From the NCBI RefSeq assembly GCF_028737255.1, contig NZ_JAQZAN010000020.1:1-64000 (forward strand): DNA of 64,000 bases. Direction: 5' to 3'. The DNA is from Actinomycetospora straminea (GTDB lineage Bacteria > Actinomycetota > Actinomycetes > Mycobacteriales > Pseudonocardiaceae). A program made the translations under genes and the position numbers. The notes beneath the pieces were generated by a model. That model worked only from the letters and a program-made list of their open reading frames with translations. It made no database searches and was not told where the DNA came from. Positions 15,318 through 38,610 of this stretch are shown here, piece by piece (within the stretch, counting starts at the first letter, position 1; each line of letters begins with the position of its first letter).

Positions 15318-18300
15318 ATGGTCGCCGGTGCACCGCACGGCGTCGCGGCGGTGCGCCCCGACGCGCCCGCGGCACGGCGCCGGTGGACCGGCTCCCGACG
15401 CCGCCCGAGCGCCGGCCCGGGGCCGGCCGCCGGGCCGGCGCCCGCCCCGGCCGACGCGCGGATCGACCGCCTCGCCGAGCGGACCTGTGACGAGCTGCGG
15501 CGCCACGGCCGGGCCCAGCAGACCGCGCTCGAGACCGCCGACGGCCCGATGTCGTACGTCGCGCTCGAGACCGCGGCCGTGCGGCTGGCGCGCTACCTGC
15601 GGCGACGCCGGATCGCCGCCGGCGACCGGGTGGCGCTGCTGCTCGACCGGCCCGCCGACGTCCTCGTCGCCCAGCTCGCGACGGCCCGGATCGGTGCGGT
15701 CTGGGTCCCGCTCGACGCCCGCCTCCCGGACGCCGCGCTCGTGGCCGTGCTCGAGGCCGCGGGTGCGGGTGTGGTGCTCACGACGACCGGGGCGGCGGCG
15801 CGGCTCGACGAGTCCGACGTCGACGCGGTCTACCTCGACCGGGTCCGCTCCCGGGTCGACGACGAGGACGCCCAGCGGCTGACCGAGGCCGAGCGCGGCT
15901 CGGTCGTCGGGATGCCGGCCTACGTGGTGGTGCACGCCGCCGACCACGCCGCCGGGGCCCGAGGCGGCCTGCGCGCCACGGCCGTGGGACACGACGCGGC
16001 CGCCGCGTTCCTCCGCGCCGCGGTCGGGCTCCTGCGCCTCGGGGCCGACGACCGGGTCCACCACGACACCCGCGCGGGCTCCGACCTCGCGCTCCTCGAG
16101 ACGTGGCTCGCGTGGTCGTCCGGGGCCGCCGTCGTCACCGCGCCGCCGGGACCGCGGCTGCGGGGCGCCGACCTCGGACGTCACCTCCGCGAGCACCGCG
16201 TCACCGTGCTCCGCGCGAACGCCGAGGACCTCGACGGGCTCGACGAGCCGCTGCCCGACCTGCGGTTGCTCCTGCTCACCGGGCCCGACCGCCCGCGCGA
16301 CCTCCTCGCCCGCTGGCAGCGTCCCGGCCGGCGCATCGTCGGCCTGCACGGCGGGCCCGAGACCACGGTCGCCGCCCTGTGGGCCGAGGTGTCGCCCCAC
16401 CAGCCGACGGGGTTCTGGCGCCCGCTGCCCGGGTACGACGTCGTGGTCGCCGACCCGGCCGACCCGCGACGGCTCCTGCCGCCGGGCGCGATCGGCGAGA
16501 TCGGCGTCACCGGGGTCGGGGTCGGGCGCGGGTACGTCGGGCGCCGGGACCTCAGCGCCGAGGCGTTCGTGCCGGCGCCGGGCCGCGGCGGGACGATGTT
16601 CCGCACCGGCGACCTCGGCCGGGTCACGCCCGCCGGCGACGTCGAGCGGATCGCGCGGCTCGACGGGTCCGGGGGTCGAGGGGAGCGGATCGCGCCGACG
16701 GCGGTGCGGCCGGCCCCGCGCTCCGGGCCGCGGCAGTCGCGGCGCACGACCGTGATGTCGCTGCCGGACACGCTGCCCGACGAGGCCGGCGAGGTCGCCG
16801 AGGCCGGCGAGGCCGCGCCGGCTGTCGAGGAGACCCCTCGCGAGGGCACGGCCACCGGCGAGGGCACGGCCACCGCGGACCCCGGAGCGACCGAGGCCCC
16901 GCCGAGCGGCGACCGCCCCGCCGAGGGCGGACCGAGCGGCGACCGTCCGGTCGACGGAGGGCCGACCGGCGGCCGGCCGACCGCCGGACCGAGCGCCGGA
17001 CCGACCGCCGCACCGAGTTCCGTCGACGCGCCGACGACCGCGGTCCGGGCCACGCCCGCCGCCACCCCCACCGCCAAGCCCAGCGCCACCCCCACCGCCA
17101 CGCCCAGCGCCGCCCCCACCGCCAAGCCCACCGCCACCCCGCCCGCGGCCACACCCCCTTCCGCCCTGCGCCCGAGCGCGCCCCGCCCGCCGGTCGCGCG
17201 CCCGTCGGCCCCGCCCGCCCCGCCCGGGCGCCGCCCGGGCGCCCCGGGTCCGGCGAGCCCCGGCCCCGCGACGCCCGACCGGCCGGCCCCCGGCCCCCCG
17301 ACGCCCGCCGGCGGCCGACCGGCGCCGCCCGCCCGCCACGGCGCGCCCCCGCGACCCGGCGCGCCCGGCGCCCCGGGCCGACCCGCCCCACCGACCCGCC
17401 CCGGTCCGCCGCCGCACCGCGGTCCCGCCGGGCCGGGCGTGCGTCCGCCGGCGGCCCGTCCCGGGTTCACGGCGGCCGCCCCCGCCCCGCCCGCGAAGCC
17501 CGCCACCCCGCCCGCGAAGCCCGGCACTCCGCCGGCGAAGCCGAGCACGGCCCCGGCCGCGGCGCCCGGCGCGACCGAGGCGCTGCTGCGCGAGATCCTG
17601 GTCGAGATCCTCGGCCGCCAGGACGTGCCGAAGGACGGCAACTTCTTCGACGACCTGGGCGCCGACTCGCTGCTGATGGCCCGCTTCTGCGCGCGCATCC
17701 GCAAGCACCCCGACCTGCCGTCGGCGGCGATGCAGGACATCTACCAGAACCCGACCCTCGCCTCGCTCGCCGTGGCCCTCGCGCCCGCCGCGAAGCCGGC
17801 CGACGCCGGCGGGGCCGCGCGAACGACCACCGGGCTCGCCGGTGTGCTCGCCGAGGTGCTCGAGCGCCCCGACGTGCCGCCCGACGCCCACTTCTTCGAC
17901 GACCTGGGCGCCGACTCGCTGCTCATGGCCCGCTTCTGCGCCCGGACCCGCAAGCGCGACGACCTGCCGTCGGTCGGCATGCCCGACATCTACGCGAACC
18001 CGACCATCGCGAGCCTGACGAAGGCCCTCGGCGGCGCCGCCGATAAGGCGCCGTCCGGGCCCGCCGGCCCCTCGGTGACCGAGACCGAGGAGCCCACCGG
18101 GCCCCGCGCGGGCACCGCGGCGTTCGTCCTGTGCGGCGCGGCCCAGCTCGCGTGCGTGCTGGCCTACAGCTATCTCGCCGCCGTCATCCTCACGTACGGG
18201 TTCCAGGCGGTCACGACGGCGACCGGGATCGTGGCGGGCTACCTCGCGGCCCTGCTCGTCGGCGTCATCGGGTTCGTCGCGCTCAGCGTGCTGCCGGTCG

Positions 18301-20246
18301 TCGCGAAGTGGGTGCTCATCGGGCGCTGGAAGCCCGGGTCGTTCCGCGTGTGGAGCCCCGCGTACCTGCGGTTCTGGGTGGTCAAGACCCTGGTCCGCAC
18401 CAGCCCGATGGTGCTGTTCGCCGGGACGCCCGCGTTCACGCTCTACCTGCGCGCGCTCGGGGCGAAGGTCGGCCGGGACGTCGTGTACCTGTCGGGCCAG
18501 GTGCCGGTGTGCACCGACCTGTTCAGCGTCGGCGACGGCAGCCTCGTGCGGAAGCAGTCCGTCATCGCCTGCTACCGCCCGCACGACGGCCGGATCGAGA
18601 TCGGCGGGGTCAGCATCGGTGCGGGCGCCTTCGTCGGCGAGGCGACGGTGCTCGACGTGCGGACCGCCGTCGGTGACGGCGCCTCGCTCGCCCACAGCTC
18701 GTCGCTGCACGCGGGCCAGGCGATCCCGGTGGGCGAGGTCTGGCACGGCTCGCCCGGCCGTCGCACCGAGGGCCCGCTCCCAGCCGTGCCGCCTGCACCC
18801 GGCAGCCGCGTGCGCCGCGTCGTCTACTCGTCGGTGCTCCTCGCGTTCGTCCTCGCGGTGGCCTCGCCGGCCGCCCTCGCGATCGCGGGCGCGCTCTACT
18901 CCCTGGTGCCGCTGTTCGCGTCGCTCTTCGATCCCGCGCCCGGCGTGCTGCTCAGCGGCGTGTTCCACCTCCAGCTGCTCGCGCTCAGCGGAGCGCTCTA
19001 CTTCGGTGCCATCCTCCTGGGCCTCGTCACGGTCGCGACCGTGCCGCGGCTGCTCGCGCTCGGGGTCCGCCCCGACGTCGTCTACCCCCTCTACGGGGTC
19101 CACTACTGGCTGCACCGCGCGATCGGGACGTTCACCAACGTCAAGTCCTTCGTCGAGCTGTTCGGCGACAGCTCCGCGATCGCCCACTACCTCGTGCTCG
19201 TCGGCTACAAGCTCCGCCCGCTCGTGCAGACCGGCTCCAACTTCGGGATGGCGGTCCAGCACGAGAACCCGTTCCTGACCACGGTCGGGCAGGGCACCGT
19301 CGTCGCCGACGGCCTGTCGGTGATGAACGCCGAGTACTCCGCGACGTCGTTCCGCGTCTCGCTGACGAGGATCGGCGCGAACAACTTCCTCGGCAACAAG
19401 ATCGCCTACCCACCCCAGGGCCGGACCGGCGACGACTGCCTGCTGGCGACGAAGGTGCAGATCCCGATGCAGGGAGAGGTCCGGCAGGGCGTCGGCCTGC
19501 TCGGCTCCCCGAGCTTCGAGATCCCGCGCAAGGTCGCGCGCGACAGCGCCCTCGACGTCGAGGACCCCGCCGAGCTCGCCGCATCGCTGCGCCGCAAGAA
19601 CCTCGACAACGGCGTCTCGATGGCCCTGCGCCTGCTCGTGCGGTGGCTCTTCGGCTACCTGGCCCTCGTGGGCGTCGTGGCGGTCGCGTCACTGCCGTTG
19701 CGTGCGGGGCCGGCCGAGGTCGTGATCGTCGAGCTGGTCGGCATCGTCCTGCTGGTCGGCTGGTTCGTGCTGGTCCAACGGTCTGTGTCGCGGCTCAAGA
19801 CGCACGCACCCGACGGTGTCTCGATCTACGACCCCGCGTTCTGGCGCCACGAGCGCTACTGGAAGGTGCCCTCGCCCGACTGGGTGCAGATGTTCAACGG
19901 CACGCCGTTCAAGCCGTTGGTGTGGCGCCTGCTCGGCGCCCGGGTCGGCGCGCGGGTGTTCGACGACGGCGCCAACCTCACCGAGAAGGAGTTCACGACC
20001 ATCGGCGACGACGCCACGCTCGGCGAGGGCTGCATTATCCAGTGCCACTCGCAGGAGGACGGCGGCTTCAAGTCCGAGCGCGTGGCGATCGGCGCCCGCG
20101 TCACCCTCGGCGTCGCCTCCTTCGTGCACTACGGCACGACCATCGGCGATGACGCCAAGCTCGCCCCCGACACGTTCCTGATGAAGGGCGAGGAGGTGCC
20201 GGCCGGTGAGTCGTGGGGCGGCAACCCCGCCCGAGGCCTCGACTGA
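15318..20246 (+). CDS. Pls/PosA-like membrane NRPS with degenerate A domain and two carrier domains
   Basis: 1642 residues. Region order: an adenylation-like domain (about 45-450) lacking key motifs; a Pro/Ala/Thr-rich linker (about 475-750); two tandem carrier domains with DDLGADSLLMARFCAR and predicted phosphopantetheine serines at S784 and S867; then a C-terminal region (about 935-1642) with several membrane segments and three hexapeptide-like beta-helix modules (around 1035-1160, 1295-1400 and 1535-1640). The C-terminal region is that of the epsilon-poly-L-lysine synthetase (Pls)/PosA family (TIGR02353), where it joins monomers through side-chain amines. The A domain has no TSGSTG loop (VVVHAADHAAG instead), GGPETT for YGPTE, and no A8 or A10 lysine motif, so it probably cannot adenylate. 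ATG 15318 has a GGGGGAG ribosome site. The A-PCP gene starts 22 bases downstream. Confidence 0.85.
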   Translation: MVAGAPHGVAAVRPDAPAARRRWTGSRRRPSAGPGPAAGPAPAPADARIDRLAERTCDELRRHGRAQQTALETADGPMSYVALETAAVRLARYLRRRRIAAGDRVALLLDRPADVLVAQLATARIGAVWVPLDARLPDAALVAVLEAAGAGVVLTTTGAAARLDESDVDAVYLDRVRSRVDDEDAQRLTEAERGSVVGMPAYVVVHAADHAAGARGGLRATAVGHDAAAAFLRAAVGLLRLGADDRVHHDTRAGSDLALLETWLAWSSGAAVVTAPPGPRLRGADLGRHLREHRVTVLRANAEDLDGLDEPLPDLRLLLLTGPDRPRDLLARWQRPGRRIVGLHGGPETTVAALWAEVSPHQPTGFWRPLPGYDVVVADPADPRRLLPPGAIGEIGVTGVGVGRGYVGRRDLSAEAFVPAPGRGGTMFRTGDLGRVTPAGDVERIARLDGSGGRGERIAPTAVRPAPRSGPRQSRRTTVMSLPDTLPDEAGEVAEAGEAAPAVEETPREGTATGEGTATADPGATEAPPSGDRPAEGGPSGDRPVDGGPTGGRPTAGPSAGPTAAPSSVDAPTTAVRATPAATPTAKPSATPTATPSAAPTAKPTATPPAATPPSALRPSAPRPPVARPSAPPAPPGRRPGAPGPASPGPATPDRPAPGPPTPAGGRPAPPARHGAPPRPGAPGAPGRPAPPTRPGPPPHRGPAGPGVRPPAARPGFTAAAPAPPAKPATPPAKPGTPPAKPSTAPAAAPGATEALLREILVEILGRQDVPKDGNFFDDLGADSLLMARFCARIRKHPDLPSAAMQDIYQNPTLASLAVALAPAAKPADAGGAARTTTGLAGVLAEVLERPDVPPDAHFFDDLGADSLLMARFCARTRKRDDLPSVGMPDIYANPTIASLTKALGGAADKAPSGPAGPSVTETEEPTGPRAGTAAFVLCGAAQLACVLAYSYLAAVILTYGFQAVTTATGIVAGYLAALLVGVIGFVALSVLPVVAKWVLIGRWKPGSFRVWSPAYLRFWVVKTLVRTSPMVLFAGTPAFTLYLRALGAKVGRDVVYLSGQVPVCTDLFSVGDGSLVRKQSVIACYRPHDGRIEIGGVSIGAGAFVGEATVLDVRTAVGDGASLAHSSSLHAGQAIPVGEVWHGSPGRRTEGPLPAVPPAPGSRVRRVVYSSVLLAFVLAVASPAALAIAGALYSLVPLFASLFDPAPGVLLSGVFHLQLLALSGALYFGAILLGLVTVATVPRLLALGVRPDVVYPLYGVHYWLHRAIGTFTNVKSFVELFGDSSAIAHYLVLVGYKLRPLVQTGSNFGMAVQHENPFLTTVGQGTVVADGLSVMNAEYSATSFRVSLTRIGANNFLGNKIAYPPQGRTGDDCLLATKVQIPMQGEVRQGVGLLGSPSFEIPRKVARDSALDVEDPAELAASLRRKNLDNGVSMALRLLVRWLFGYLALVGVVAVASLPLRAGPAEVVIVELVGIVLLVGWFVLVQRSVSRLKTHAPDGVSIYDPAFWRHERYWKVPSPDWVQMFNGTPFKPLVWRLLGARVGARVFDDGANLTEKEFTTIGDDATLGEGCIIQCHSQEDGGFKSERVAIGARVTLGVASFVHYGTTIGDDAKLAPDTFLMKGEEVPAGESWGGNPARGLD
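17641..17943 (+). repeat. Near-identical DNA duplication within the two carrier domains
   Basis: The 50-odd bases at 17641-17694 recur at 17890-17943 with only about two differences, offset by 249 bases (83 codons). They encode the core helix around each phosphopantetheine serine. Flanking parts of the two domains differ far more, which suggests recent duplication or gene conversion of the core. Confidence 0.8.
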
Positions 20247-20268
20247 CCGAACCCCGAGGACGGACCCC

Positions 20269-22926
20269 ATGACCGACACCACGACCGCCGCCGCGTGTGC
20301 CGTCACCGACGACGCCCGCTGGCGCGCCGTGCTCGCCAGCGGCGCCACCGCCGTGCCCCGGTGGAGCCTCACGCCCGGGACACCCGGCGAGGGGCCGGTC
20401 GCGACCACCGTGCCCGTCCCGGCGGCGCTGCTCGACGACGTGTCCGCGCAGGCCGGGCGCCTCGGCGTCGTCCCGGAGGCGCTGCTGCTCGCGGCGCACG
20501 CCCGGGTCCTCGCGGCGCTCACCGCGGAGCCCGAGGTCCTCGCCGGGGTCGAGGTCGCCGGCCGGACGCTGCCGGCCCGCCTCGACACCGAGGTCGCGTC
20601 GTGGCGTGTCCTGGCCGCCGCCGCGGCCACCGCGCTGACGGAGCTGGCCGGCGCGGACCAGCCCGGGGACGAGGTGGCCCTGGCCCAGGCGCGCCGCGAC
20701 CTGACGGGCCTGTGGCCCGAGACGGTGCTGGCGCCCGCGGTCGGCGAGGCCGACGGGACCGCCGGGGCCGCGTCGCTCGCCGACGACGCCGTCTTCCGGA
20801 TCGACCGCCCGGCCGCGGACGTGCTGCGGGTCGTGCACCGGTCCGGCGACCTCGACGTCGCGGCCGCCGAGCGGATCGCCGGCTACCACCTGACGGCGCT
20901 CGGGCAGCTGTGCGCCGACCTCGACGCGGCGCCGGGTGCGCAGGGTCTCGTCGGCCCGGAGGAGCTGGCCGCCCAGGTCGACGGCCTCGCGGGCCCGGTC
21001 CGCGAGCGCCCGGCCATGCCCGCGCACGAGATCATCCGGGCGCGTGCCGCCGCCGACCCGGACCGCGTCGCCGTCGTCAACGGCGACCGGTCGTGGACCT
21101 ACCGCGAGCTCGACGAGGTCACCGACCGGGTCGCGCGCGCGATCCTGGCCCGCGGCCTCCCGCACGAGGGCATCGTGGCGGTGGTCGCCGAGCGCACCCT
21201 CGACTGGGCCGCCTCCGTGCTCGGCATCCTCAAGGCGGGTGCCGCGTACCTGCCGCTGGAGCCCCACTTCCCGGCGGACCGCATCGCCACCGTCCTCACC
21301 CGCGCCGACGCGCAGCTGGTGCTGGGGGAGCGGGGCAGCACGACGACCCTCGACGAGGCGCTGAGCAACCTCGGCGCGGCCGCCCCCGAGCGCCTGCTCG
21401 TCGACGACGCGGTCGCCGAGGAGCACGGCTCCGACGTGCCGCGGGTCGAGATCGCCGGCGACCGGCTCGCCTACCTGTACTTCACCTCCGGCTCCACGGG
21501 CGAGCCGAAGGGCGCCATGTGCGAGCACGCGGGCATGGTCAACCACCTGTACGCCAAGATCGAGGACCTCGGGATCACCGAGGGCACGGTGGTCACCGAG
21601 ACCGCCCCGCAGTGCTTCGACATCTCGCTCTGGCAGCTCGTCGCGCCGTGGCTGGTGGGCGGCACGACCGTCATCGTCGAGCAGGAGACGATCCTCGACG
21701 TCCCGCGGTTCGTCGACCTCCTGGCCCGCCGGCGGGTCGAGGTCGCCCAGCTCGTGCCGTCGTACCTCGACGTCGTCGTGTCGTTCCTCGAGCAGCAGGA
21801 CGTGCCGGCCGCCGAGGTGCTGCCCGCGCTGCGGCGGATCGCGGTCACCGGCGAGGCGGTCAAGAAGGAGCTGGTGGCGCGCTGGTTCTCCGTGCGCCCC
21901 GACGTCGCGGTCGTCAACGCCTACGGCCTGACCGAGACCTGCGACGACACCAACCACGAGATCCTCACCGAGGTGCCCACCGGCGAGCGGGTGCCGCTCG
22001 GGCCCGCCGTCCCCAACGTCCGCGTCTACGTCGTCGACGAGCACCTGAACCCGGTGCCGCTCGGCGCCCCGGGCGAGATCGTGTTCTCCGGGGTGTGCGT
22101 CGGCCGCGGCTACGTCAACGACCCCGAGCGCACCGCGAAGGCGTTCGTCCCCGACCCGCTGCGGCCGGGCGAGCGGCTCTACCGCAGTGGCGACCACGGC
22201 CGGTGGCTGCCCGACGGGAAGCTCGACTTCCTCGGCCGCCGCGACCACCAGGTGAAGATCTCCGGGTTCCGCATCGAGATCGGCGAGGTCGAGAACACCC
22301 TGCTGCGCGCGCCCGGGGTGCGCGACGCGGCGGTGGTCGTCGCCGAGCGGCCGGGGCGCGGCAAGCAGCTGGTCGGCTTCTACGGCGCCGCCGAGCCCGT
22401 GGAGACCGCGGTGCTGCGCGGGACCCTCGAGGCCTCGCTGCCCGTGTACATGGTCCCGCCGGTGCTCCACCACCAGGAGACCCTGCCGCTCACCCCGAAC
22501 GGCAAGATCGACCGCAAGGCGCTCACCGCGCTCGCGCTGGCCCTCGACGAGCCCGAGCCCACCGCCGGCGGCGACACCACCCCGCTGACGCCGACCGAGG
22601 AGCGCGTGGCCGCGGTCTGGGCGCCGCTGCTCGGCGTCGACGCCTCGGCGCTCGGGCGCGACACCCACTTCTTCGAGCGCGGCGGGTCGTCGCTGCTCGC
22701 CGTGAAGATGGCGGTCGGGCTGAAGAAGGCCGTCACCCTCCCCGAGATCGTGGCGAACCCCGTGCTCGCCGACCTCGCCGCCCTCATCGACGGCCGCGCG
22801 CCCGCCGAGCCGGCACCCGCCGCAGCACCCGCGCCGGCACCCGCGCCGGCGTCATCGCCGTCCGCGTCCGCCGTGGACGCCCCCACGGTCCGGCTGCGTC
22901 CGTCCGACCTCACGCCCTCGACGTGA
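20269..22926 (+). CDS. Stand-alone NRPS: condensation remnant, adenylation and carrier domains
   Basis: 885 residues. Residues 1 to about 240 resemble the C-terminal half of a condensation domain but lack HHxxxDG, so no condensation activity is expected. The A domain (about 255-760) is complete: YFTSGSTGEPKG (404-414), NAYGLTE (550-556), YRSGDHGRW, GRRDHQVKISGFRIE and the A10 lysine K746. Aligning to GrsA, I read the pocket as D451 I452 W455 Q494 A525 T527 A551 D559 D560 K746. The carrier domain has FFERGGSSLLAVKM (S808). There is no thioesterase. It should activate one amino acid and present it to the membrane synthetase upstream. With sbnA and sbnB beside it, diaminopropionate is the likely substrate (inference). 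ATG 20269 is favoured over 20206, which lies in the previous gene. Confidence 0.88.
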   Translation: MTDTTTAAACAVTDDARWRAVLASGATAVPRWSLTPGTPGEGPVATTVPVPAALLDDVSAQAGRLGVVPEALLLAAHARVLAALTAEPEVLAGVEVAGRTLPARLDTEVASWRVLAAAAATALTELAGADQPGDEVALAQARRDLTGLWPETVLAPAVGEADGTAGAASLADDAVFRIDRPAADVLRVVHRSGDLDVAAAERIAGYHLTALGQLCADLDAAPGAQGLVGPEELAAQVDGLAGPVRERPAMPAHEIIRARAAADPDRVAVVNGDRSWTYRELDEVTDRVARAILARGLPHEGIVAVVAERTLDWAASVLGILKAGAAYLPLEPHFPADRIATVLTRADAQLVLGERGSTTTLDEALSNLGAAAPERLLVDDAVAEEHGSDVPRVEIAGDRLAYLYFTSGSTGEPKGAMCEHAGMVNHLYAKIEDLGITEGTVVTETAPQCFDISLWQLVAPWLVGGTTVIVEQETILDVPRFVDLLARRRVEVAQLVPSYLDVVVSFLEQQDVPAAEVLPALRRIAVTGEAVKKELVARWFSVRPDVAVVNAYGLTETCDDTNHEILTEVPTGERVPLGPAVPNVRVYVVDEHLNPVPLGAPGEIVFSGVCVGRGYVNDPERTAKAFVPDPLRPGERLYRSGDHGRWLPDGKLDFLGRRDHQVKISGFRIEIGEVENTLLRAPGVRDAAVVVAERPGRGKQLVGFYGAAEPVETAVLRGTLEASLPVYMVPPVLHHQETLPLTPNGKIDRKALTALALALDEPEPTAGGDTTPLTPTEERVAAVWAPLLGVDASALGRDTHFFERGGSSLLAVKMAVGLKKAVTLPEIVANPVLADLAALIDGRAPAEPAPAAAPAPAPAPASSPSASAVDAPTVRLRPSDLTPST

Positions 22927-22946
22927 CCACCCCGAAGGAGTCTGCG

Positions 22947-23975
22947 ATGTCAGTGACGGTGCCGCCGTTCGCGGTGATCCCCGGTGCCCAGGTGGGAGAG
23001 GCGTTGCGCGGTCGGGAGCGCGACGTCGTCGCCCTCATGGAGGAGACCTACCGGCTCCACGACGCCGGGCGCACCCACAACCCGCCGTCGTACTTCCTCA
23101 CCTTCGCCGACCGGCCCACGTCGCGGATCATCGCGCTGCCCGCCTCCGTCGGCGGCGACGTGAACGTCGACGGGATCAAGTGGGTCTCGAGCTTCCCCGA
23201 GAACGTGGCGGCCGGGGTGCCCCGCGCGTCGGCGGTGCTGATCCTCAACGACCACGACACCGGCTACCCCTTCGCCTGCCTCGAGGCGTCGATCATCAAC
23301 GCGAGCCGCACGTCCGCCTCCGCGGCGCTGGCCGCCGACCGCCTGACCCGCGGGCGGGAGCGACCCCGTCGCGTCGGCTTCTTCGGGGTGGGCCTCATCG
23401 CCCGCTACCTGCACACCTACCTCGCGGCGACCGGCTGGACCTTCGACGAGACCGGCGTGTTCGACCTCAAGCCGGAGAGCGCCGAGGGCTTCCGCGGCTA
23501 CCTCGAGACGCAGGACGGCACGGGGACGATCACCGTGCACGACGACGCCGAGTCGCTGATCCGGAACAGCGACCTGGTCGTCTTCGCCACGGTCGCCGGG
23601 ACGCCGCACGTGCACGACCCGGCGTGGTTCGACCACCACCCGCTGGTGCTGCACGTGTCGCTGCGCGACCTCGGCACCGAGGTGATCGAGGCGTCGACCA
23701 ACATCGTCGACGACGTCGACCACTGCCTGCGCGCCAACACCTCGGTGCACCTCGTGGAGCAGGAGACGGGCAACCGCGAGCACGTGCACGGGACGCTGGG
23801 CGACGTGCTCGAGGAGCGGATGACGCTGCCGACCGACCGGACCGTCGTGTTCTCGCCGTTCGGCCTCGGCATCCTCGACCTCGCGCTGGGCAAGGACGTC
23901 TACGACCACGTCACGAAGACCGGCGGCCTGCACGTGGTCGAGGACTTCTTCCACGAGCTCAAGCGGTACGGCTGA
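22947..23975 (+). CDS. sbnB: SbnB-type 2,3-diaminopropionate biosynthesis dehydrogenase
   Basis: 342 residues, ornithine cyclodeaminase/mu-crystallin fold. SbnB-like features include DVNVDGIKWVSSFPEN near residue 70, the nucleotide-binding GFFGVGLIARYL around residue 148, and the C-terminal VFSPFGLGILDLALG. In staphylococci SbnB uses NAD+ to split N-(1-amino-1-carboxy-2-ethyl)-glutamate into L-2,3-diaminopropionate and 2-oxoglutarate. The ATG at 22947 has GAAGGAG seven bases upstream and lies 20 bases after the A-PCP gene, so the three genes from 15318 form an operon. Its partner SbnA is encoded 2.8 kb downstream. Confidence 0.88.
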   Translation: MSVTVPPFAVIPGAQVGEALRGRERDVVALMEETYRLHDAGRTHNPPSYFLTFADRPTSRIIALPASVGGDVNVDGIKWVSSFPENVAAGVPRASAVLILNDHDTGYPFACLEASIINASRTSASAALAADRLTRGRERPRRVGFFGVGLIARYLHTYLAATGWTFDETGVFDLKPESAEGFRGYLETQDGTGTITVHDDAESLIRNSDLVVFATVAGTPHVHDPAWFDHHPLVLHVSLRDLGTEVIEASTNIVDDVDHCLRANTSVHLVEQETGNREHVHGTLGDVLEERMTLPTDRTVVFSPFGLGILDLALGKDVYDHVTKTGGLHVVEDFFHELKRYG

Positions 23976-23997
23976 GAGCGGTGGGCCCCGGCGGGCG

Positions 23998-24603
23998 TCA
24001 GGTGAGCTCGCCGGGGGTGACCGCCCCGCGCTCGAGCGCCGCGTTGGCGAGCTCGACGCGGCGCCGGGTGCTCGCCGGGTCGAGCTCGAACTTGTCGTAC
24101 AGGCGCAGCAGGTGCTGCTTGACCGCAGCCTCGGAGACGACGAGCGCGGCGGCGATGTCGCGGGCCGTGGCCGGCTCGGTGAACACCGCCCCGGAGAACA
24201 GCGGGCGGCACAGCGCGACGAGGACGTCGTGCTCGCGGCGCGTGAGCTCCGGGGCCCGGCGCGGGGCCGTCGTGGGGGCCGCCCGCCCCGCGGAGCCGCG
24301 GAACACCATGCGGGTCGCGCCGACGTGGATGACGTCGCCGTGGCGCAGGGCGCGCTCGGCGATGAGCCGCTCGCCGCCGACGATCGTGCCGTTGGTGCTG
24401 CCGAGATCGCGGATCGCCCAGCTCGGCCCGTAGGCCTGCAGCACGGCGTGGAGGGACGACACCTGGCCGTCGTGGTCGAGCACGACGCCGTTGCCCTCGC
24501 CGCGCCCCACCGTCACCGCCGGTGGGGAGAGGAGGACGACCTCGACGCCGCCAGGTCGCCAGACCTCGAGGAAGCTCGTCGCCCGGTCCCCGTCGTCGGC
24601 CAC
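23998..24603 (-). CDS. FHA domain protein with C-terminal winged-helix/HTH
   Basis: 201 residues. The forkhead-associated domain spans about residues 25-100, with VGRGEGNGVVLD, SSLHAVL and DLGSTNGT, the phosphothreonine-binding loops. A DNA-binding-like region follows (about 115-195): LTRREHDVLVALCRP, then ARDIAAALVVSEAAVKQHLLRLYDKF, resembling a LuxR/OmpR-type HTH. This layout suggests a regulator switched by Ser/Thr phosphorylation. It is divergent from a PknB-like kinase, its obvious partner, and convergent with sbnB (22 bases between stops). The start MADDGDRATS is well placed before the FHA strands. Confidence 0.85.
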   Translation of the reverse strand: MADDGDRATSFLEVWRPGGVEVVLLSPPAVTVGRGEGNGVVLDHDGQVSSLHAVLQAYGPSWAIRDLGSTNGTIVGGERLIAERALRHGDVIHVGATRMVFRGSAGRAAPTTAPRRAPELTRREHDVLVALCRPLFSGAVFTEPATARDIAAALVVSEAAVKQHLLRLYDKFELDPASTRRRVELANAALERGAVTPGELT

Positions 24604-24751
24604 GCCTCGCCTCCCTCCCGCGAATCCACCCGAGCGGGGGTGGTGACAGAACGTGACTTTCGGGTGAGACTACTACGCGGCACGTACCACGAACGGGCGT
24701 GCGTGCGACAAAGTGTCACCAGCGTCGACCGGGTGTCAGGGGGTGCCTCGG

Positions 24752-26569
24752 GTGGTCGAGCGGTTCGGGCCCTACGAGCTGCGCCGCCGCGTCGGTCGCG
24801 GCGGTATGGGCGAGGTGTTCGAGGCCTTCGACACCGAGCACGACCGCATCGTCGCGCTCAAGCGCCTCGTGGCCGGGACGGCCAACGACGACGAGTTCCA
24901 GAAGCGGTTCCGGCGCGAGGCCCGCCTGACCGCGCGCCTGCGCAGCCCGCACGTCATCCCCATCCACCGCTACGGCGAGATCGACGGGCGGCTGTTCCTC
25001 GACATGCGGCTCGTCGGGGGCGCCGACCTCGAGAAGACCATCCAGGCCGAGGGCCGGCTGAAGCCCGCCCGGGCGGTGGCGATCATCGAGCAGGTCGCGT
25101 CCGCGCTCGACGCCGCTCACCACGCCGGCCTGGTGCACCGCGACGTCAAGCCGTCGAACGTCCTCATCGACGACGCGATCGGCGCCCACGACTTCGTCTA
25201 CCTCGTCGACTTCGGGATCACCCGCTCCATGACGGGCGACGAGAGCTCGGCGCTCACGGGGACCCGCACGCTGATCGGCAGCCTCGACTACATGGCGCCC
25301 GAGCGGTTCCGGGGCGAGGGCGGGGTGGGCATCGACATCTACGCGCTGGCCTGCCTGCTCTTCGAGTGCCTCACCGGGAGCCGGCCCTTTCCGCTCGACG
25401 GCTTCACCGAGCTCATGACCGCCCACCTGACGTGGACGCCGCCCACCCCGTCGCGGGCGGTCCCCGGCCTGCACGAGGCGTTCGACGCCGTCATCGCCGC
25501 GGGCCTGGCCAAGGACCCCGCCCAGCGGCCCGCGAGCGCGGGCGAGCTCGCCGCTGCGGCCCGGGCGGCGCTCGACGCGGGGACCGGGACCCCGGTGCCG
25601 TCGACGCCGACCACCGCGGCCCCGCGGGCGGAGACGCCCGCGCCCGCCGAGCACGTCGTCGACGGCACGACGCCTCCGGTCGCCGAGTCGGCGGCCACCG
25701 CCGAGGACGCCCACCCGGCCGCGGAGCCGGTGGCCGAGGAGCCGACGGCCCGGCCGGCCGAGCCGGCCGAGCCCCCGGCGGCCCCCCGCCGCCGCGGCAC
25801 CCAGGTCTCGCCCGCCGCGGCGTCGCTCGACGCGCCGACCACGGCCGTGCCCGCCCGCACCGGGGCGGCGCCCGCCGGCGCCGACACCACGACGGCGCTG
25901 CCCCGGCCCGCGGCGCAGGCGGCGGTCGTCCGTGACGCACCCGGCCCGCGCACCCGCATCGGCGGGACGCCGCGCCTCGAGACGCCCCCGACGCGCGAGA
26001 TCGGGACGGCGAGGCGCGAAGGGCCCCGGCCGACGACGGGTCGAGCGGGCGGGACCGTCGGTGCGGGAGGCGGACCGCGACCGAGCCAGCAGGCCCCGCA
26101 GGCCCAGCCCACCCAGCAGGCCCAGCCCACCCAGCAGGCCCAGCCCACCCAGCAGGCCCAGCGCCCGGCCCGACCGGCGCCCCCGCCCGGCGGGGAGGGC
26201 CTCACGTCGGATCTGCGGGTCGGCGACCGGCAGCGCGGCGGGGCCCTGGGTCAGGCCGGCCAGCCGGGCCCGTCCACGGCGCCCTCCACCGGCCGTCCCC
26301 CCGCCCGGCCCTCGGGTCGGCCCGCCGAGGGGGCGTTCGCGTCGTCGCCGTCGCTGCGACCGGTGACGCCGGCCCCGGCGGCCGCGCCCGCGCCGGCCCC
26401 GACCACCACGCCGGAACCGGTCGTCGCGCCGGAGCCGGAGGAGGACCCGCCAGCCGAGCGCCACACCCTGCGGACGGTCCTCTGGGTCGTCCTGGCGGTC
26501 CTCGGGGCCGCGGCGCTGATCGCGGGCGCCGTCTGGGTGGCCATCCTCCTGACCCCCGCCGCGGGCTGA
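24752..26569 (+). CDS. PknB-like Ser/Thr protein kinase, membrane-anchored
   Basis: 605 residues from GTG 24752 (GTG 24743 is an alternative). The kinase domain covers about residues 6-275: GRGGMGEVF (P-loop), VALKRL (ATP lysine), HRDVKPSNVL (catalytic loop), DFGI and GSLDYMAPE. Then comes a 290-residue Pro/Ala-rich linker with three perfect 18-base repeats (26103-26156, encoding AQPTQQ), and one membrane segment near the C terminus (about 573-598). Only about five residues lie outside, so there is no extracellular sensor. The divergent FHA-HTH gene is the likely substrate or effector. The pair sits between sbnB and sbnA and may control the biosynthetic locus, though it could also be unrelated. 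Confidence 0.92.
   Translation: MVERFGPYELRRRVGRGGMGEVFEAFDTEHDRIVALKRLVAGTANDDEFQKRFRREARLTARLRSPHVIPIHRYGEIDGRLFLDMRLVGGADLEKTIQAEGRLKPARAVAIIEQVASALDAAHHAGLVHRDVKPSNVLIDDAIGAHDFVYLVDFGITRSMTGDESSALTGTRTLIGSLDYMAPERFRGEGGVGIDIYALACLLFECLTGSRPFPLDGFTELMTAHLTWTPPTPSRAVPGLHEAFDAVIAAGLAKDPAQRPASAGELAAAARAALDAGTGTPVPSTPTTAAPRAETPAPAEHVVDGTTPPVAESAATAEDAHPAAEPVAEEPTARPAEPAEPPAAPRRRGTQVSPAAASLDAPTTAVPARTGAAPAGADTTTALPRPAAQAAVVRDAPGPRTRIGGTPRLETPPTREIGTARREGPRPTTGRAGGTVGAGGGPRPSQQAPQAQPTQQAQPTQQAQPTQQAQRPARPAPPPGGEGLTSDLRVGDRQRGGALGQAGQPGPSTAPSTGRPPARPSGRPAEGAFASSPSLRPVTPAPAAAPAPAPTTTPEPVVAPEPEEDPPAERHTLRTVLWVVLAVLGAAALIAGAVWVAILLTPAAG
26103..26156 (+). repeat. Three tandem 18-bp repeats in the kinase linker
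   Basis: Three exact copies of an 18-base unit encode a Gln/Pro-rich hexapeptide in the juxtamembrane linker. Such in-frame microsatellites can change copy number by slippage without breaking the frame. Confidence 0.85.
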
Positions 26570-26618
26570 TCGGGGGCCTCGCGATGGATCACGGCACGGG
26601 CACTGCCTTACCCCACGG

Positions 26619-26637
26619 TGAGGAAAGCCTGACCCCG
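26619..26637 (+). promoter_or_regulatory. Possible iron box (IdeR/DmdR-like) upstream of sbnA
   Basis: The 19 bases TGAGGAAAGCCTGACCCCG match the IdeR consensus TWAGGTWAGSCTWACCTWA at 13 positions by my count, with the right-hand end poor. It lies 102 bases before the sbnA start. Weak by itself, but sbnA/sbnB homologues occur in siderophore loci, so iron control would make sense. Confidence 0.25.
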
Positions 26638-26738
26638 GGCCCGGGAAAGGGTGGCTCCGCGGCGATGTCGACGCGGGGCGTCACGGCGGATTCTGGTGAT
26701 CACACCGGGACGACGACAGCGAAACCGAGGAGGTCGCC

Positions 26739-27770
26739 ATGACCATCATCTCCGCCCCTCAGCAGTACAACACCGACGACCTCTTCGTGGACCTGCGGGC
26801 GATCGTCGAGCACAACCTGTTCCTCAAGGTCGAGGGCATGAACTTCGCGGGGTCCGTGAAGCTGAAAGCCGCGGCCTCGATGATCGGCTCGGCGCAGGCC
26901 CAGGGCCTGCTCAACCCGTGGTCGATCGTCGTCGAGTCGTCGTCGGGCAACCTCGGCGTCGCGCTGGCGATGGTCTGCGCCAACCACGGCTACCGGTTCA
27001 TCTGCGTCACCGACGACCGCTGCAACGCGCAGACCCGCAAGCTCATCGAGGCCTTCGGCGGCGAGGTCCACGTCGTCGACGTGCCGCACCCCGAGACCGG
27101 CCTGCTCGGCGCCCGCATCGAGCACCTGGCCTCGATCTGCGCGAAGAACCCCGACGCCGTCTGGCTCAACCAGTACGAGAACCCGGCCAACGCCGGCGCC
27201 CACTACGCCCAGACCGGCCCGGCGATCGCCCACAACTTCCCGCGCCTCGACGTCGTGTTCGTCGGTGCGGGCACCTGCGGGACGCTGATGGGCACCGCGC
27301 GCTGGTTCAAGCAGCACCGCCCGCACGTCAAGGTCGTCGCGATCGACGTCGAGGGCTCGGTGAGCTTCGGCGGCGAGGCCGGCACGCGCCGCATCCCCGG
27401 CCTGGGCATGGGCATGACCCCGCCCGCGCTCGACCGCTCGATGATCGACGACGTCGTGATGGTCCCCGAGACCGAGACCCTGCGGATGTGCCAGCGCCTC
27501 GCGATGCGCGGGTTCCTGTTCGGCGGCTCCACCGGCACCGTCGTCGCCGGCGCCCAGGCCTGGATGAACGAGCACGGGCGGCCGGGCATGACCGCGGTGA
27601 CGCTGGCGCCCGACTCCGGCGAGCGCTACCTCGACACGGTCTACGCCCCGATGTGGCGCGAGGAGCACTACGGCGCCTACGCGCGCCTGACCGGCCGCTA
27701 CACCCTGCCCGACCCCGACCAGCTGCCCACGGTGGGCTCGCCGAGCACGCCCACCCCGCCGCCCGCCTGA
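26739..27770 (+). CDS. sbnA: SbnA-type 2,3-diaminopropionate synthase (PLP enzyme)
   Basis: 343 residues, cysteine synthase fold. The PLP lysine is probably K41 in NFAGSVKLKAA. The cofactor-binding SSSGNLGVALAM and GGSTGTVVAG loops and the substrate loop NQYENPANAGAHY match SbnA rather than ordinary CysK. SbnA condenses O-phospho-L-serine with L-glutamate to the amino-acid adduct that SbnB then cleaves to diaminopropionate. The N terminus lacks the usual VGxTPxVxL strand motif of cysteine synthases, which is a small oddity. ATG 26739 has GAGGAGG seven bases upstream. The dioxygenase gene follows after 64 bases and probably shares the transcript. Confidence 0.88.
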   Translation: MTIISAPQQYNTDDLFVDLRAIVEHNLFLKVEGMNFAGSVKLKAAASMIGSAQAQGLLNPWSIVVESSSGNLGVALAMVCANHGYRFICVTDDRCNAQTRKLIEAFGGEVHVVDVPHPETGLLGARIEHLASICAKNPDAVWLNQYENPANAGAHYAQTGPAIAHNFPRLDVVFVGAGTCGTLMGTARWFKQHRPHVKVVAIDVEGSVSFGGEAGTRRIPGLGMGMTPPALDRSMIDDVVMVPETETLRMCQRLAMRGFLFGGSTGTVVAGAQAWMNEHGRPGMTAVTLAPDSGERYLDTVYAPMWREEHYGAYARLTGRYTLPDPDQLPTVGSPSTPTPPPA

Positions 27771-27834
27771 TCTGCCGCCCGCCTGATCTCCCGCCCGACC
27801 CGCCGACCACCCGCAACGCCCTGGGAGTCCCGCC

Positions 27835-28842
27835 ATGTCGTCCACGATGCAGCCGCCCGCCGCCGGCAACCTCGACCTCCGCCCCGGCCACCCGCCGGTC
27901 CTGTGGGTCAACCCCGGGCCCGACCCGGTCGGCTGGGCGGCGTTCCACCGCAACGACGTCCGGCAGATCGTCGCCCGCCACGGCTCGGTGCTCATCCGGG
28001 GGCTCGGGGTCCGCGACCACGCGCTGACGGCCGCCGTGATGGGCCGTCTCGCGGCGGTGGGCCTGCTGGCCGAGCGCGAGGCGTTCGCGGCCCGCACGGC
28101 GCTCGGGAACGGGCTGTACTCGGCCACCCCGTGGCCGTCGACCCAGCAGATGTGCCTGCACAACGAGCTGAGCTACCTGCCCGACCCGCCGGCGTTCATG
28201 TTCTTCGCCTGCCTCACCCCGCCCGCCGCGGGCGGCGCCACCCCGGTCGGCGACGCCTCCGCCGTCCTCCAGGCGCTGCCCCCGGCGCTGGTCTCGCGGC
28301 TCGACCACGAGGGCTGGATGCTGGTCCGCAACTACAACGACGAGATCGGCGCCTCGTGGGCCGAGGCCTTCGGCACGAACGACCGCGGCGCCGTCGAGCA
28401 CTACTGCCGCAGCCAGGGCATCGAGTTCACCTGGAACGGCGACGGCCTGAGCACCCGCCAGCGCCGGCGCGCCGTGGTGCGGCACCCCGTCGACGGGCGG
28501 CCCTGCTGGTTCAACCAGGTCGCGTTCCTCAACGAGTGGACGCTCGACCCCGACGTGCGCGAGTACCTCGTGGAGTCCTACGGGCCCGACGGCCTGCCGT
28601 TCACCACGCGCTTCGGCAACGGCGAGCCGATCGGGGAGGACGTCGTGAACCTGATCAACAACGCGTACGCCGCGCACACGGTCCGCGAGCCGTGGCAGGC
28701 CGGCGACGTGCTGGTCGTCGACAACATCCGCACCGCCCACGGCCGCGACCCCTACGAGGGCGACCGCGAGGTCGTCGTGGGGATGGCCGACGCGATCCGT
28801 CTCGACGGCGGCGGGCCCCCGCCCCCGGGGCCGCGCGGCTGA
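27835..28842 (+). CDS. TauD/SyrP-like Fe(II)/2-oxoglutarate dioxygenase
   Basis: 335 residues with a double-stranded beta-helix. The iron triad is visible: H and E in CLHNELSYLP (HxE, near residue 106), and the distal His in NIRTAHGRDPY; the 2-oxoglutarate-binding Arg is in GDREVVVGMAD. The segment CLTPPAAGGATPVGDASAVL is characteristic of SyrP-type enzymes, which in syringomycin biosynthesis hydroxylate a carrier-bound amino acid at C-beta. Placed directly after sbnA, it may oxidise Dap or the carrier-bound chain (inference). SbnB releases 2-oxoglutarate, its co-substrate. ATG 27835 has CTGGGAG upstream. Confidence 0.85.
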   Translation: MSSTMQPPAAGNLDLRPGHPPVLWVNPGPDPVGWAAFHRNDVRQIVARHGSVLIRGLGVRDHALTAAVMGRLAAVGLLAEREAFAARTALGNGLYSATPWPSTQQMCLHNELSYLPDPPAFMFFACLTPPAAGGATPVGDASAVLQALPPALVSRLDHEGWMLVRNYNDEIGASWAEAFGTNDRGAVEHYCRSQGIEFTWNGDGLSTRQRRRAVVRHPVDGRPCWFNQVAFLNEWTLDPDVREYLVESYGPDGLPFTTRFGNGEPIGEDVVNLINNAYAAHTVREPWQAGDVLVVDNIRTAHGRDPYEGDREVVVGMADAIRLDGGGPPPPGPRG

Positions 28843-28927
28843 CGAGCCTGCCGCTGACGCGGGTGCGTGTCCGGCGCGGCGGGCACAGTGGGTGGAGGAA
28901 CCCACGAGCACCGGGAGGTCAGCGGGC

Positions 28928-30332
<1,405 letters not shown>

Positions 30333-30352
<20 letters not shown>

Positions 30353-36805: not shown

Positions 36806-38581
36806 CTAGGTGATGCCGTGGGTCTGCAGCCACATCTCCAGCAGTGCGACCTGCCACAGGGCGTTGGCCCCGAGGTTGGTCCGACCGGAGTTCGGGTCGT
36901 CGAGCATCTGCGTGACGGCCTCGGGGCGGAAGAGCCCGCGCGACGTCGCCGCCGGGTCGGTCAGCGCGGCCCGCACGCGCTCGAGGACCGGCCCCGAGAG
37001 CTGGCGGATCGCCGGCACCGGGAAGTAGCCCTTCTTCCGGTCGATGATCTCGTAGGGCAGCACGCCGCGGGCCGCGGCCTTGAGCACGCCCTTGCCGCCG
37101 TCGGCGAGCTTGTACTCGGGCGGGCAGGCCCCCATCGTCTCGACGAACTCGTGGTCGAGGAACGGCACGCGCGCCTCGAGGCCCCACGCCATGGTCATGT
37201 TGTCGACGCGCTTCACCGGGTCATCGACGAGCATGATCGTGGTGTCGAGGCGCAGGGCGGCGTCGACGGCGGAGTCCGCGCCGGGCCGGCCGAAGTGCTC
37301 GGCGACGAACGCGCGGCTCACGTCGTCGTCGACCAGCGCCTCGGCGGTCAGCAGCTGGGCGACCTCGCTGTGCGGGCGGTCGAAGAACGCCTTCTGGTAG
37401 GCGTCGAGGGCCCCGTCGCGCGCGACGCCGGCGAGCGGCGGGTACCAGTCGTAACCGCCGAGGATCTCGTCCGCGCCCTGGCCCGACTGCACCACCTTGA
37501 TCGACTTCGAGACCTCGCGCGAGAGCAGGTAGAAGGCGACGACGTCGTGGCTGACCATCGGCTCGGCCATCGCCGCGACGGCGCCGGAGAGCGCGTCGTC
37601 GGTCTCGTGCTTGGGGACCGTGAACTTCACGTGGTCGGTGCCGTAGGTCTTCGCGACGAGGTCGGAGTAGTCGAACTCGTCGCCGCGCTCGCCGGCCTCG
37701 GACTCGAAGCCGATCGAGAAGGTCTTGAGGTCCTTCTGCCCCATCTCGGCGAGCAGCGCCACGACGATCGACGAGTCGATGCCGCCGGAGAGCAGCACGC
37801 CGACCGGGACGTCGGCGACCATGCGGCGCTCGACGGCGGTGCGCAGCGAGCTCAGCGCGGTGTCCGCCCACTCCTCGGCGCTCTTCTCGCCGTCGCGGAC
37901 GAACTCCGGGGTCCAGTAGAGCCAGTCGTCGGTGCCGCCGTCGGGGGAGATCGTCCGGACGGTGGCCGGCGGGAGCTTGCGAACGCCCTGCAGGATCGTG
38001 CGCGGCGCCGGCACCACCGAGTGGAAGCTCATGTAATGGTGCAGGGCGACGCGGTCGACGTCGGTGTTGAGCCCGCCGCCCGCGAGCAGCGCCGGCAGCG
38101 ACGACGCGAAGCGCAGCGCCCCGGGCACCTGCGCGACGTAGAGCGGCTTGATCCCCAGCCGGTCGCGGCCGAGCACGAGCTCGCCGGTGCGCCGGTCGGC
38201 GACGGCGAAGGCGAACATGCCCTTGAAGTGCTCGACGCAGGCCTTCCCCCAGCGGTGGAAGGCCTTGAGCAGCACCTCGGTGTCCGAGGTGGAGAAGAAG
38301 CGGTAGCCCTGCGCGTGCAGCTCGTCGCGCAGCTGCTTGTAGTTGTAGATGATCCCGTTGAACACGGCGGTCAGGCCGAGCTCGGAGTCCACCATCGGCT
38401 GCGCGCCGGTCTCCGACAGATCGATGATCTTCAGCCGCTGGTGGGCGAGGGCCAGGGGCCCGTGGCCGACCACCCCCCAGCCGTCGGGGCCGCGGGGCTC
38501 GAGGACCTGGGCCATGTCGAGGACCGTCCGGGCCTCGGCCGCCCGGCCGTCGAAGCGGAACTCACCGGCGATGCCGCACAA
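36806..38581 (-). CDS. AsnB-type glutamine amidotransferase of the N-acetylglutaminylglutamine family
   Basis: 591 residues. The N-terminal nucleophile Cys2 (MCGIAGEFRFDG) starts a class II glutaminase domain (about 1-210), and the ATP-pyrophosphatase domain has the SGGIDSS loop near residue 258. The pattern of motifs (EPRGPDGWG, IIDLSETGAQPMVDSELGL, YMSFHSVVPAPRTILQGVRKLPPATV) is that of the amidotransferase of the osmolyte N-acetylglutaminylglutamine amide (TIGR03104) rather than house-keeping AsnB. It would amidate a carboxyl group with glutamine-derived ammonia. It lies 29 bases downstream of the ATP-grasp fusion. Confidence 0.88.
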   Translation of the reverse strand: MCGIAGEFRFDGRAAEARTVLDMAQVLEPRGPDGWGVVGHGPLALAHQRLKIIDLSETGAQPMVDSELGLTAVFNGIIYNYKQLRDELHAQGYRFFSTSDTEVLLKAFHRWGKACVEHFKGMFAFAVADRRTGELVLGRDRLGIKPLYVAQVPGALRFASSLPALLAGGGLNTDVDRVALHHYMSFHSVVPAPRTILQGVRKLPPATVRTISPDGGTDDWLYWTPEFVRDGEKSAEEWADTALSSLRTAVERRMVADVPVGVLLSGGIDSSIVVALLAEMGQKDLKTFSIGFESEAGERGDEFDYSDLVAKTYGTDHVKFTVPKHETDDALSGAVAAMAEPMVSHDVVAFYLLSREVSKSIKVVQSGQGADEILGGYDWYPPLAGVARDGALDAYQKAFFDRPHSEVAQLLTAEALVDDDVSRAFVAEHFGRPGADSAVDAALRLDTTIMLVDDPVKRVDNMTMAWGLEARVPFLDHEFVETMGACPPEYKLADGGKGVLKAAARGVLPYEIIDRKKGYFPVPAIRQLSGPVLERVRAALTDPAATSRGLFRPEAVTQMLDDPNSGRTNLGANALWQVALLEMWLQTHGIT

Positions 38582-38610
38582 ACTTCTGCCTCCTCCGGGT
38601 CACGCGCGCG

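Follow-up and report, generated by a model that had tools for sequence, protein, structure and literature searches.

The locus at positions 15318..28842 of a 64,000-nucleotide stretch of DNA from the soil actinomycete Actinomycetospora straminea (contig NZ_JAQZAN010000020.1; the whole stretch is hereafter the window) raises the question of how a membrane synthetase of the Pls/PosA type, here called P1, could build a product when its own adenylation (A) domain is dead. Antimicrobial isopeptides, including one used as a food preservative, are the products of poly(amino acid) synthetases that consist of a single chain. The locus encodes P1, a second protein (P2) with a complete A domain and a peptidyl carrier protein (PCP) domain, SbnB, an FHA/HTH protein on the opposite strand, a Ser/Thr kinase, SbnA and a TauD-family oxygenase (TauD). 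All genes claimed for the interval by a first-pass annotation are present at their coordinates with gene-like codon-position GC, and the intergenic gaps are 22 bp between P1 and P2 and 20 bp between P2 and SbnB. Split loci of this kind are not confined to the window but make up a lineage that recurs across several families of actinomycetes. It is probable that P2 activates L-2,3-diaminopropionate (Dap) and charges P1 in trans, with P1 polymerising the residue and TauD oxidising it. The features are as follows.

15318..20246, forward strand, P1: pseudo-A domain, linker, two PCPs and Pls/PosA terminal domain (TIGR02353, 646 bits > 423)
15438..16730, forward strand, P1 pseudo-A domain, without A3 loop and C-terminal subdomain (alignment, dN/dS, fold model)
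16728..17552, forward strand, P1 linker, Pro/Ala-rich (275 residues, 28% Pro, 21% Ala)
17583..18032, forward strand, P1 carrier domain pair, serines 784 and 867 (two PP-binding stretches, the outer limits of the second approximate)
18132..20231, forward strand, P1 Pls/PosA terminal domain with three hydrophobic clusters (TIGR02353 positions 2-695 of 695; hydropathy)
20269..22926, forward strand, P2: region like the C-lobe of a condensation domain, A domain and PCP (TIGR01733, 388 > 317)
20269..21018, forward strand, P2 N-terminal region, condensation-domain C-lobe-like (weak PF00668 in relatives; fold search)
21019..22548, forward strand, P2 A domain, pocket DIWQATADDK (TIGR01733, pocket reading)
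22947..23975, forward strand, SbnB, predicted step 2 of L-Dap synthesis (TIGR03944, 403 > 327)
23998..24603, reverse strand, FHA/HTH gene, possible regulator (PF00498)
24713..26569, forward strand, Ser/Thr protein kinase, possible regulator (PF00069)
26739..27770, forward strand, SbnA, predicted step 1 of L-Dap synthesis (TIGR03945, 373 > 350)
27835..28842, forward strand, TauD-family Fe/2-oxoglutarate oxygenase (PF02668, 148 bits)

The description of P1 in the first-pass annotation, a 1642-residue synthetase with a Pls/PosA C terminus, a dead A domain and two carriers, was borne out on each point. The 1642-residue protein matched TIGR02353 with 646 bits against a cut-off of 423 and contains two PP-binding stretches with serines 784 and 867. 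Its A-like region scored 109 bits with PF00501 and 204 bits with TIGR01733, below the cut-off of 317, and a profile search of P1 gave no match to PF13193, the C-terminal part of A domains. Alignment of this region (pseudo-A) to an intact relative revealed that the A3 loop is gone, that A4 and A5 are altered and that the domain stops before the C-terminal subdomain; the A3 lysine was absent from all seven relic A domains aligned. A pattern search found no A3, A8 or A10 in P1 of the 92 loci having both P1 and P2 (60 named and 32 further, with some organisms in both sets and one locus too short to read), and all three patterns were matched in 21 of 21 ordinary Pls-type synthetases sampled. The patterns are strict, since the ordinary Pls copy of the same genome (contig C33) matched A4, A5, A7 and A10 and missed A3 and A8. 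Searched against PDB chains, pseudo-A matched linear gramicidin synthetase best, a score counted over two domains; the best single A domain was that of PosA (134 bits), followed by fuscachelin FscH (117), a 5u89 fragment (107) and epsilon-poly-lysine synthetase (105). The predicted structure of pseudo-A has the core fold of A domains (mean pLDDT 75 in the best of five models, 55-60 in the others), which only confirms the fold and nothing beyond. The layout of the Pls/PosA family is three pairs of membrane helices around three soluble domains, and in P1 hydrophobic clusters were located, by hydropathy plot alone, at residues 931-1003, 1165-1250 and 1433-1491.

The complete A domain had been assigned to the second protein, and P2 (885 residues) indeed passed the TIGR01733 cut-off (388 bits against 317) and matched both PF13193 and PP-binding, with no second close match to its A domain in the genome. 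The approximately 250 residues ahead of the A domain, overlooked in the first-pass annotation, resemble the C-lobe of a condensation domain: PF00668 matched weakly and below cut-off in three of three relatives, with no match in the window, and a model of the region (pLDDT 83) had a loose likeness to condensation domains (best TM-score 0.66). The substrate pocket, at positions which we take to correspond to those of PheA, was fully read in 94 of 112 related loci and incompletely by patterns in 18, organisms fetched twice being counted twice. The codes were DIWQSTADDK (69), DIWQSTTDDK (11), DIWQATADDK (11) and three single variants. Among PDB chains the pocket region matched best 9n1u/9n1v (76 bits), the A3 domain of sulfazecin synthetase with bound Dap or methyl-Dap inhibitor, the pocket of which has two acidic residues in common with that of P2. 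Next were 8xjz (69 bits) and PvdL A3 (55 bits), the latter presumably specific for 2,4-diaminobutyrate (Dab). The open-access literature yielded nothing useful on the pocket code, on NAPAA clusters connected with diaminopropionate or on TauD/SyrP/alanosine links.

The assignment of SbnB and SbnA as a Dap pathway was upheld, both proteins scoring above curated cut-offs (TIGR03944, 403 bits against 327; TIGR03945, 373 against 350), and the presence of the pair favours Dap as the substrate of P2. The claimed SyrP-like dioxygenase was recovered at the level of the TauD family only, with a PF02668 score of 148 bits; of the 2-His-1-carboxylate motif, the H-x-E pattern was present in 110 of 115 TauD matches.

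Conservation of the gene set was evaluated by scanning named genomes with an alignment of P2; the best 80 of at least 588 confirmed loci were taken, all of which contain P2 by design. P1, called at 400 bits or above, was found in 60 of the 80, distributed over Actinomycetospora, Pseudonocardia, Amycolatopsis, Kutzneria, Geodermatophilus, Blastococcus, Streptomyces, Actinacidiphila and some metagenome bins; the named loci closest to the window are from Actinomycetospora. TauD, SbnB and SbnA occurred together in 54 of these 60 loci and singly in 59, 55 and 56, respectively, and a thioesterase was fused to P2 in 27. The exceptions were L107, L109, L086, L108, L101 and L069, the contig stopping within the locus in the first two. 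Thus the SbnA/SbnB pair and the synthetase are kept together in relatives, and Pls members with a degenerate A domain next to an A-PCP protein and SbnA/SbnB, which the first-pass annotation had proposed to look for, form a recurrent lineage in several actinomycete families. Chance neighbourhood of two unrelated nonribosomal peptide synthetase (NRPS) genes is excluded for P1 and P2, which are conserved together. Soil metagenome bins assigned to Gammaproteobacteria (L086, L108) and to Acidobacteria (L100, where P1 is cut) also contained split loci, which would reflect either misbinning or transfer.

In the remaining 20 of the best 80 loci P1 was not above threshold; two of them are cut by the contig end in P1 (L073, L100), and the others adjoin modular NRPS or fatty-acid-type genes. 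In Streptomyces sp. CB03234 (L124) and S. parvus (L136), P2, TauD, SbnB and SbnA stand without P1 next to genes named by eye as a SerA-like phosphoglycerate dehydrogenase (phosphoserine supply) and fatty-acid-synthesis-like genes, which points to a different product class. In five further loci (L118, L134, L137, L138, L143) a P2-type A domain adjoins A domains of modular NRPS, again with no P1. In these five it is as if the P2 unit were portable.

A comparison independent of P2 was made by searching 394 genomes of the class with the P1 terminal domain and the P2 A domain, two P1 candidates being scored per genome so that copy counts are lower bounds. P1 was found in 16 genomes, a P2-type A domain in 20 and both in 14. 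In the two genomes with P1 and no P2 (G229, G597) the A domain of P1 is intact: A3, A4, A5, A7 and A8 were matched, and the A10 pattern was not. No intact A domain was found in the P1 copies detected in the 14 genomes with both proteins, which number at least 18: that of the window, a contig-cut copy on C9 and 16 others. The open frames of these 16 span only 816-1080 residues and hence hold no full A domain together with PCP and terminal domain; five of them, read directly, contain no A motif. A third P1 copy in G389 (L194) likewise lacks A motifs. The association between presence of P2 and state of the P1 A domain in the 16 genomes gave a Fisher p of 0.008, a value that ignores relatedness.

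In Actinomycetospora, service in trans can be assessed from natural differences between genomes of a single genus. A P2-type A domain is present in 14 of 18 genomes, exactly one in each (E <= 1e-85), although with an in-frame stop in G206; in G204 and G206 P2 is of the window type (95% identity), and 11 genomes have P1 of the window type. A second locus type consists of SbnA, P1, a PCP-thioesterase gene and TauD. It is without the P2 A domain and SbnB in G000 (where the contig stops inside P1 and SbnA was not seen), G166, G118 and G204, and only SbnA and P1 are left in G189; all five genomes carry P2 and an above-cut-off SbnB elsewhere. In A. cinnamomea (G178), which has no other such P1, the second-type locus is complete with A domain and SbnB. 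In second copies, the A domain and SbnB have been lost only where another locus supplies both, as expected of service in trans. P1 copies without an A domain within the 19 kb fetched were found in G166, G135, G189, G389, G292 and G260, all with P2 elsewhere. Trans-activation of P1 by P2 thus has good comparative support from the genome sequences. The genome of the window itself contains a second split locus (L057, C9:137000-148732) with a contig-cut P1, a free PCP-thioesterase gene lacking an A domain, and TauD; SbnB was not found at this locus.

The origin of the pseudo-A domain was investigated by comparing six relic A domains with ten A domains, of which that of L188 was the best match for all six. 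Identities to it were 63% for L036 (truncated), 60% for L122, 57% for L098, 53% for L110, 44% for L178 and 35% for the window. The A domains of P1 provide a graded series in which catalysis is being lost under continued selection. L188 is an intact synthetase adjoining diaminobutyrate aminotransferase and aspartate kinase, the neighbours described for poly-Dab synthetase (PMC8117764). Since the relics match L188 best and its neighbours are of the poly-Dab type, the ancestor of P1 was probably a synthetase of the poly-Dab type, the A domain of which then decayed. Derivation of pseudo-A from P2 was rejected, the match to P2 (29%, 89 bits) being weaker than that to the L188 A domain (35%, 225 bits). 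In ten Actinomycetospora loci (sets of 15 and 6 pairs; simple counting with no high-GC correction) the mean dN/dS of pseudo-A was 0.30 and 0.27; the terminal domain gave 0.30 and 0.23, the P2 A domain gave 0.12 and 0.16, and the means of all parts measured lay between 0.12 and 0.42. Pseudo-A is under purifying selection, and neutral debris is excluded because its dN/dS resembles that of the terminal domain. A tree of 122 terminal domains, built by a quick method with SH-aLRT as the sole support measure, placed 98 rows of the split type and three rows with intact A domains (L188-L190) apart from 21 other intact-A rows, with the point at which L188-L190 join the split rows left unfixed. Relic A domains were scattered over the tree, implying at least six changes on well-supported branches; L057, marked there as A-less, is cut at the contig end and its N-terminus is not in the sequence. 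The simplest reading of the tree is that P2 was recruited once and that the A domain of P1 then decayed repeatedly.

SbnB releases 2-oxoglutarate. In the mechanism we favour, SbnA and SbnB would make L-Dap, which P2, a stand-alone A-PCP protein, would adenylate. P2 would charge carriers in trans, its own PCP and those of P1, directly or via its own carrier, and the Pls/PosA terminal domain of P1 would polymerise the charged Dap at the membrane. Pseudo-A would be a non-catalytic remnant retained by selection, its role probably being structural or in docking. TauD, which would use 2-oxoglutarate of the kind SbnB releases, most likely oxidises carrier-bound Dap. The product would be an isopeptide-linked Dap oligomer or polymer; because TauD is near-invariant in P1 loci, plain poly-Dap is disfavoured. 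A broader version is advanced tentatively: the loci may represent a widespread actinomycete family of split polymerases, with a single soluble A-PCP protein supplying one membrane polymerase or more in trans, oxidation on a carrier preceding polymerisation and leading to oxidised poly-Dap, and pseudo-A acting as a docking part or scaffold.

Several observations weigh against this mechanism. The pocket of P2 fails to separate Dap from Dab, since 8xjz and PvdL A3 score next after the Dap-bound domain. SbnA and SbnB of L086 and L108 are diverged (40-43% identity), L101 shows no SbnB nearby, and A. succinea (G207; L069/L185) keeps P1, P2, SbnA and TauD with no SbnB above cut-off, the sole SbnB-like match in its genome reaching 221 bits. 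P1 was not seen in six of the 20 P2-carrying genomes of the class, and the combination of P2 and TauD is also present in P1-less loci, some without SbnA/SbnB in view; P2 is therefore not tied to polymer making. The retention of a PCP by P2 is unaccounted for. Finally, a hydroxyl on an amine-bearing carbon of Dap would be unstable, so that oxidation after amide formation, desaturation or attack elsewhere is possible.

In a rival reading, P2 charges its own PCP only and TauD oxidises Dap there, after which the residue passes to the carriers of P1, transferred by the thioesterase in loci that have it fused; the split would then exist for on-carrier oxidation, as in SyrB1/SyrB2/SyrC. Such a shuttle, which we regard as possible though doubtful, agrees with the occurrence of TauD in 59 of the 60 named P1 loci and of a P2-fused thioesterase in 27, and with the joint retention of PCP-thioesterase and TauD in four of the five A-less second-type loci. 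It is countered by the absence of a fused thioesterase from 33 of the 60 named loci and from the window, and by the ordinary serine-type GHSxG motif of the thioesterase, unlike SyrC, which uses a cysteine. Shuttles have been described for syringomycin (PMC8949500) and, with a type II thioesterase believed to act as the carrier of the residue, for rotihibin (PMC8552735).

It is unlikely that P1 has ceased to polymerise and instead uses a single Dap unit or a few of them to make a small molecule, for example a building block of a siderophore or antibiotic, its terminal domain acting as a transferase. Dap is a precursor of both siderophores and antibiotics (PMC11479980), and P2, TauD, SbnB and SbnA also occur in P1-less loci, some with other NRPS genes; nevertheless, the terminal domain matches TIGR02353 over its full length, its closest intact relative stands in a poly-Dab-type gene set, and no siderophore genes were recognised in the locus. 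Activation of another amino acid such as Dab, with SbnA and SbnB serving another pathway, is less probable still. The pocket also resembles PvdL A3, P1 would come from a poly-Dab-type synthetase, and three loci with TauD and no SbnA/SbnB above threshold (L139, L143, L144) gave no full pocket reading; however, SbnB and SbnA accompany 55 and 56 of the 60 named P1 loci, and the best pocket match is Dap-bound. A decaying cluster with no product, suggested by the eroded A domain of P1 and the absence of SbnB in A. succinea, is very improbable in view of mean dN/dS values of 0.12-0.42 and a gene set conserved across families.

The FHA/HTH and Ser/Thr kinase pair (23998-26569), which the first-pass annotation also overlooked, sits between SbnB and SbnA. 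The pair occupies the same position in six more Actinomycetospora loci of the window type (L063, L064, L065, L185-L187), and the more distant window-type loci L059-L062 have the kinase only, with no FHA/HTH gene seen there. The aldehyde dehydrogenase gene at 28892-30352 was excluded as a member of the locus, since of the window-type loci fetched none but the window itself and L063 showed it. Elsewhere in the window, at 36806-41193 on the reverse strand, an asparagine-synthase-like gene adjoins a glutamate-cysteine-ligase-like gene, a pair which, judged by eye from the translations, resembles osmolyte genes of the N-acetylglutaminylglutamine type.

The separation of activation from polymerisation recurs in many genera and would provide a polymerase with an exchangeable monomer supply and a site for on-carrier modification. 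No description of the split form was found in the open-access literature, subscription papers and preprints lying outside the search. In published accounts, the synthetases of Dap, Dab, ornithine and lysine polymers are single chains that each contain an A domain (PMC4668381, PMC10522769, PMC8225329, PMC8117764, PMC8949500). Among the closest by description is the poly-L-Dap synthetase of Streptomyces albulus PD-1, which like P1 has a Pls-type terminal domain, with L-Dap likewise made by cysteine-synthase and ornithine-cyclodeaminase homologues; in contrast to the split locus it is a single chain encoded by 4338 bp with its own L-Dap-active A domain, and mined homologues are mentioned 'with similar structure' (PMC4668381). 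An SbnB near an SbnA homologue and NRPS has been reported in S. scabies (PMC11479980). PldA and PddA (PMC8117764, PMC8225329) are approached through the poly-Dab-type L188, likened to them by its neighbours and 45% identical to the P1 terminal domain; they differ in having their own intact A domain and a Dab supply. PosA and epsilon-poly-lysine synthetase (PMC10522769) resemble pseudo-A (134 and 105 bits) but carry a working A domain in the same chain, unlike P1. In streptothricin biosynthesis the separate A domain of ORF19 also builds a diamino-acid isopeptide oligomer, although that A domain itself mediates chain growth and no Pls-type domain is described for it (PMC9606270). Oxidation is not mentioned for any of the eight homopoly(amino acid)s in the list given there, so that oxidised poly-Dap, if real, would be of a kind outside these eight. 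Separate A-T proteins that stand in for an A domain that is dead or absent are reported for albicidin, ramoplanin, enduracidin and syringomycin (PMC8949500), those of ramoplanin and enduracidin having, by description, an N-terminal extension as in P2. They are also reported for rotihibin, in which the residue is believed to be shuttled by a type II thioesterase (PMC8552735). The partners of these five are linear NRPS lines, whereas the partner of P2 is a Pls-type polymerase.

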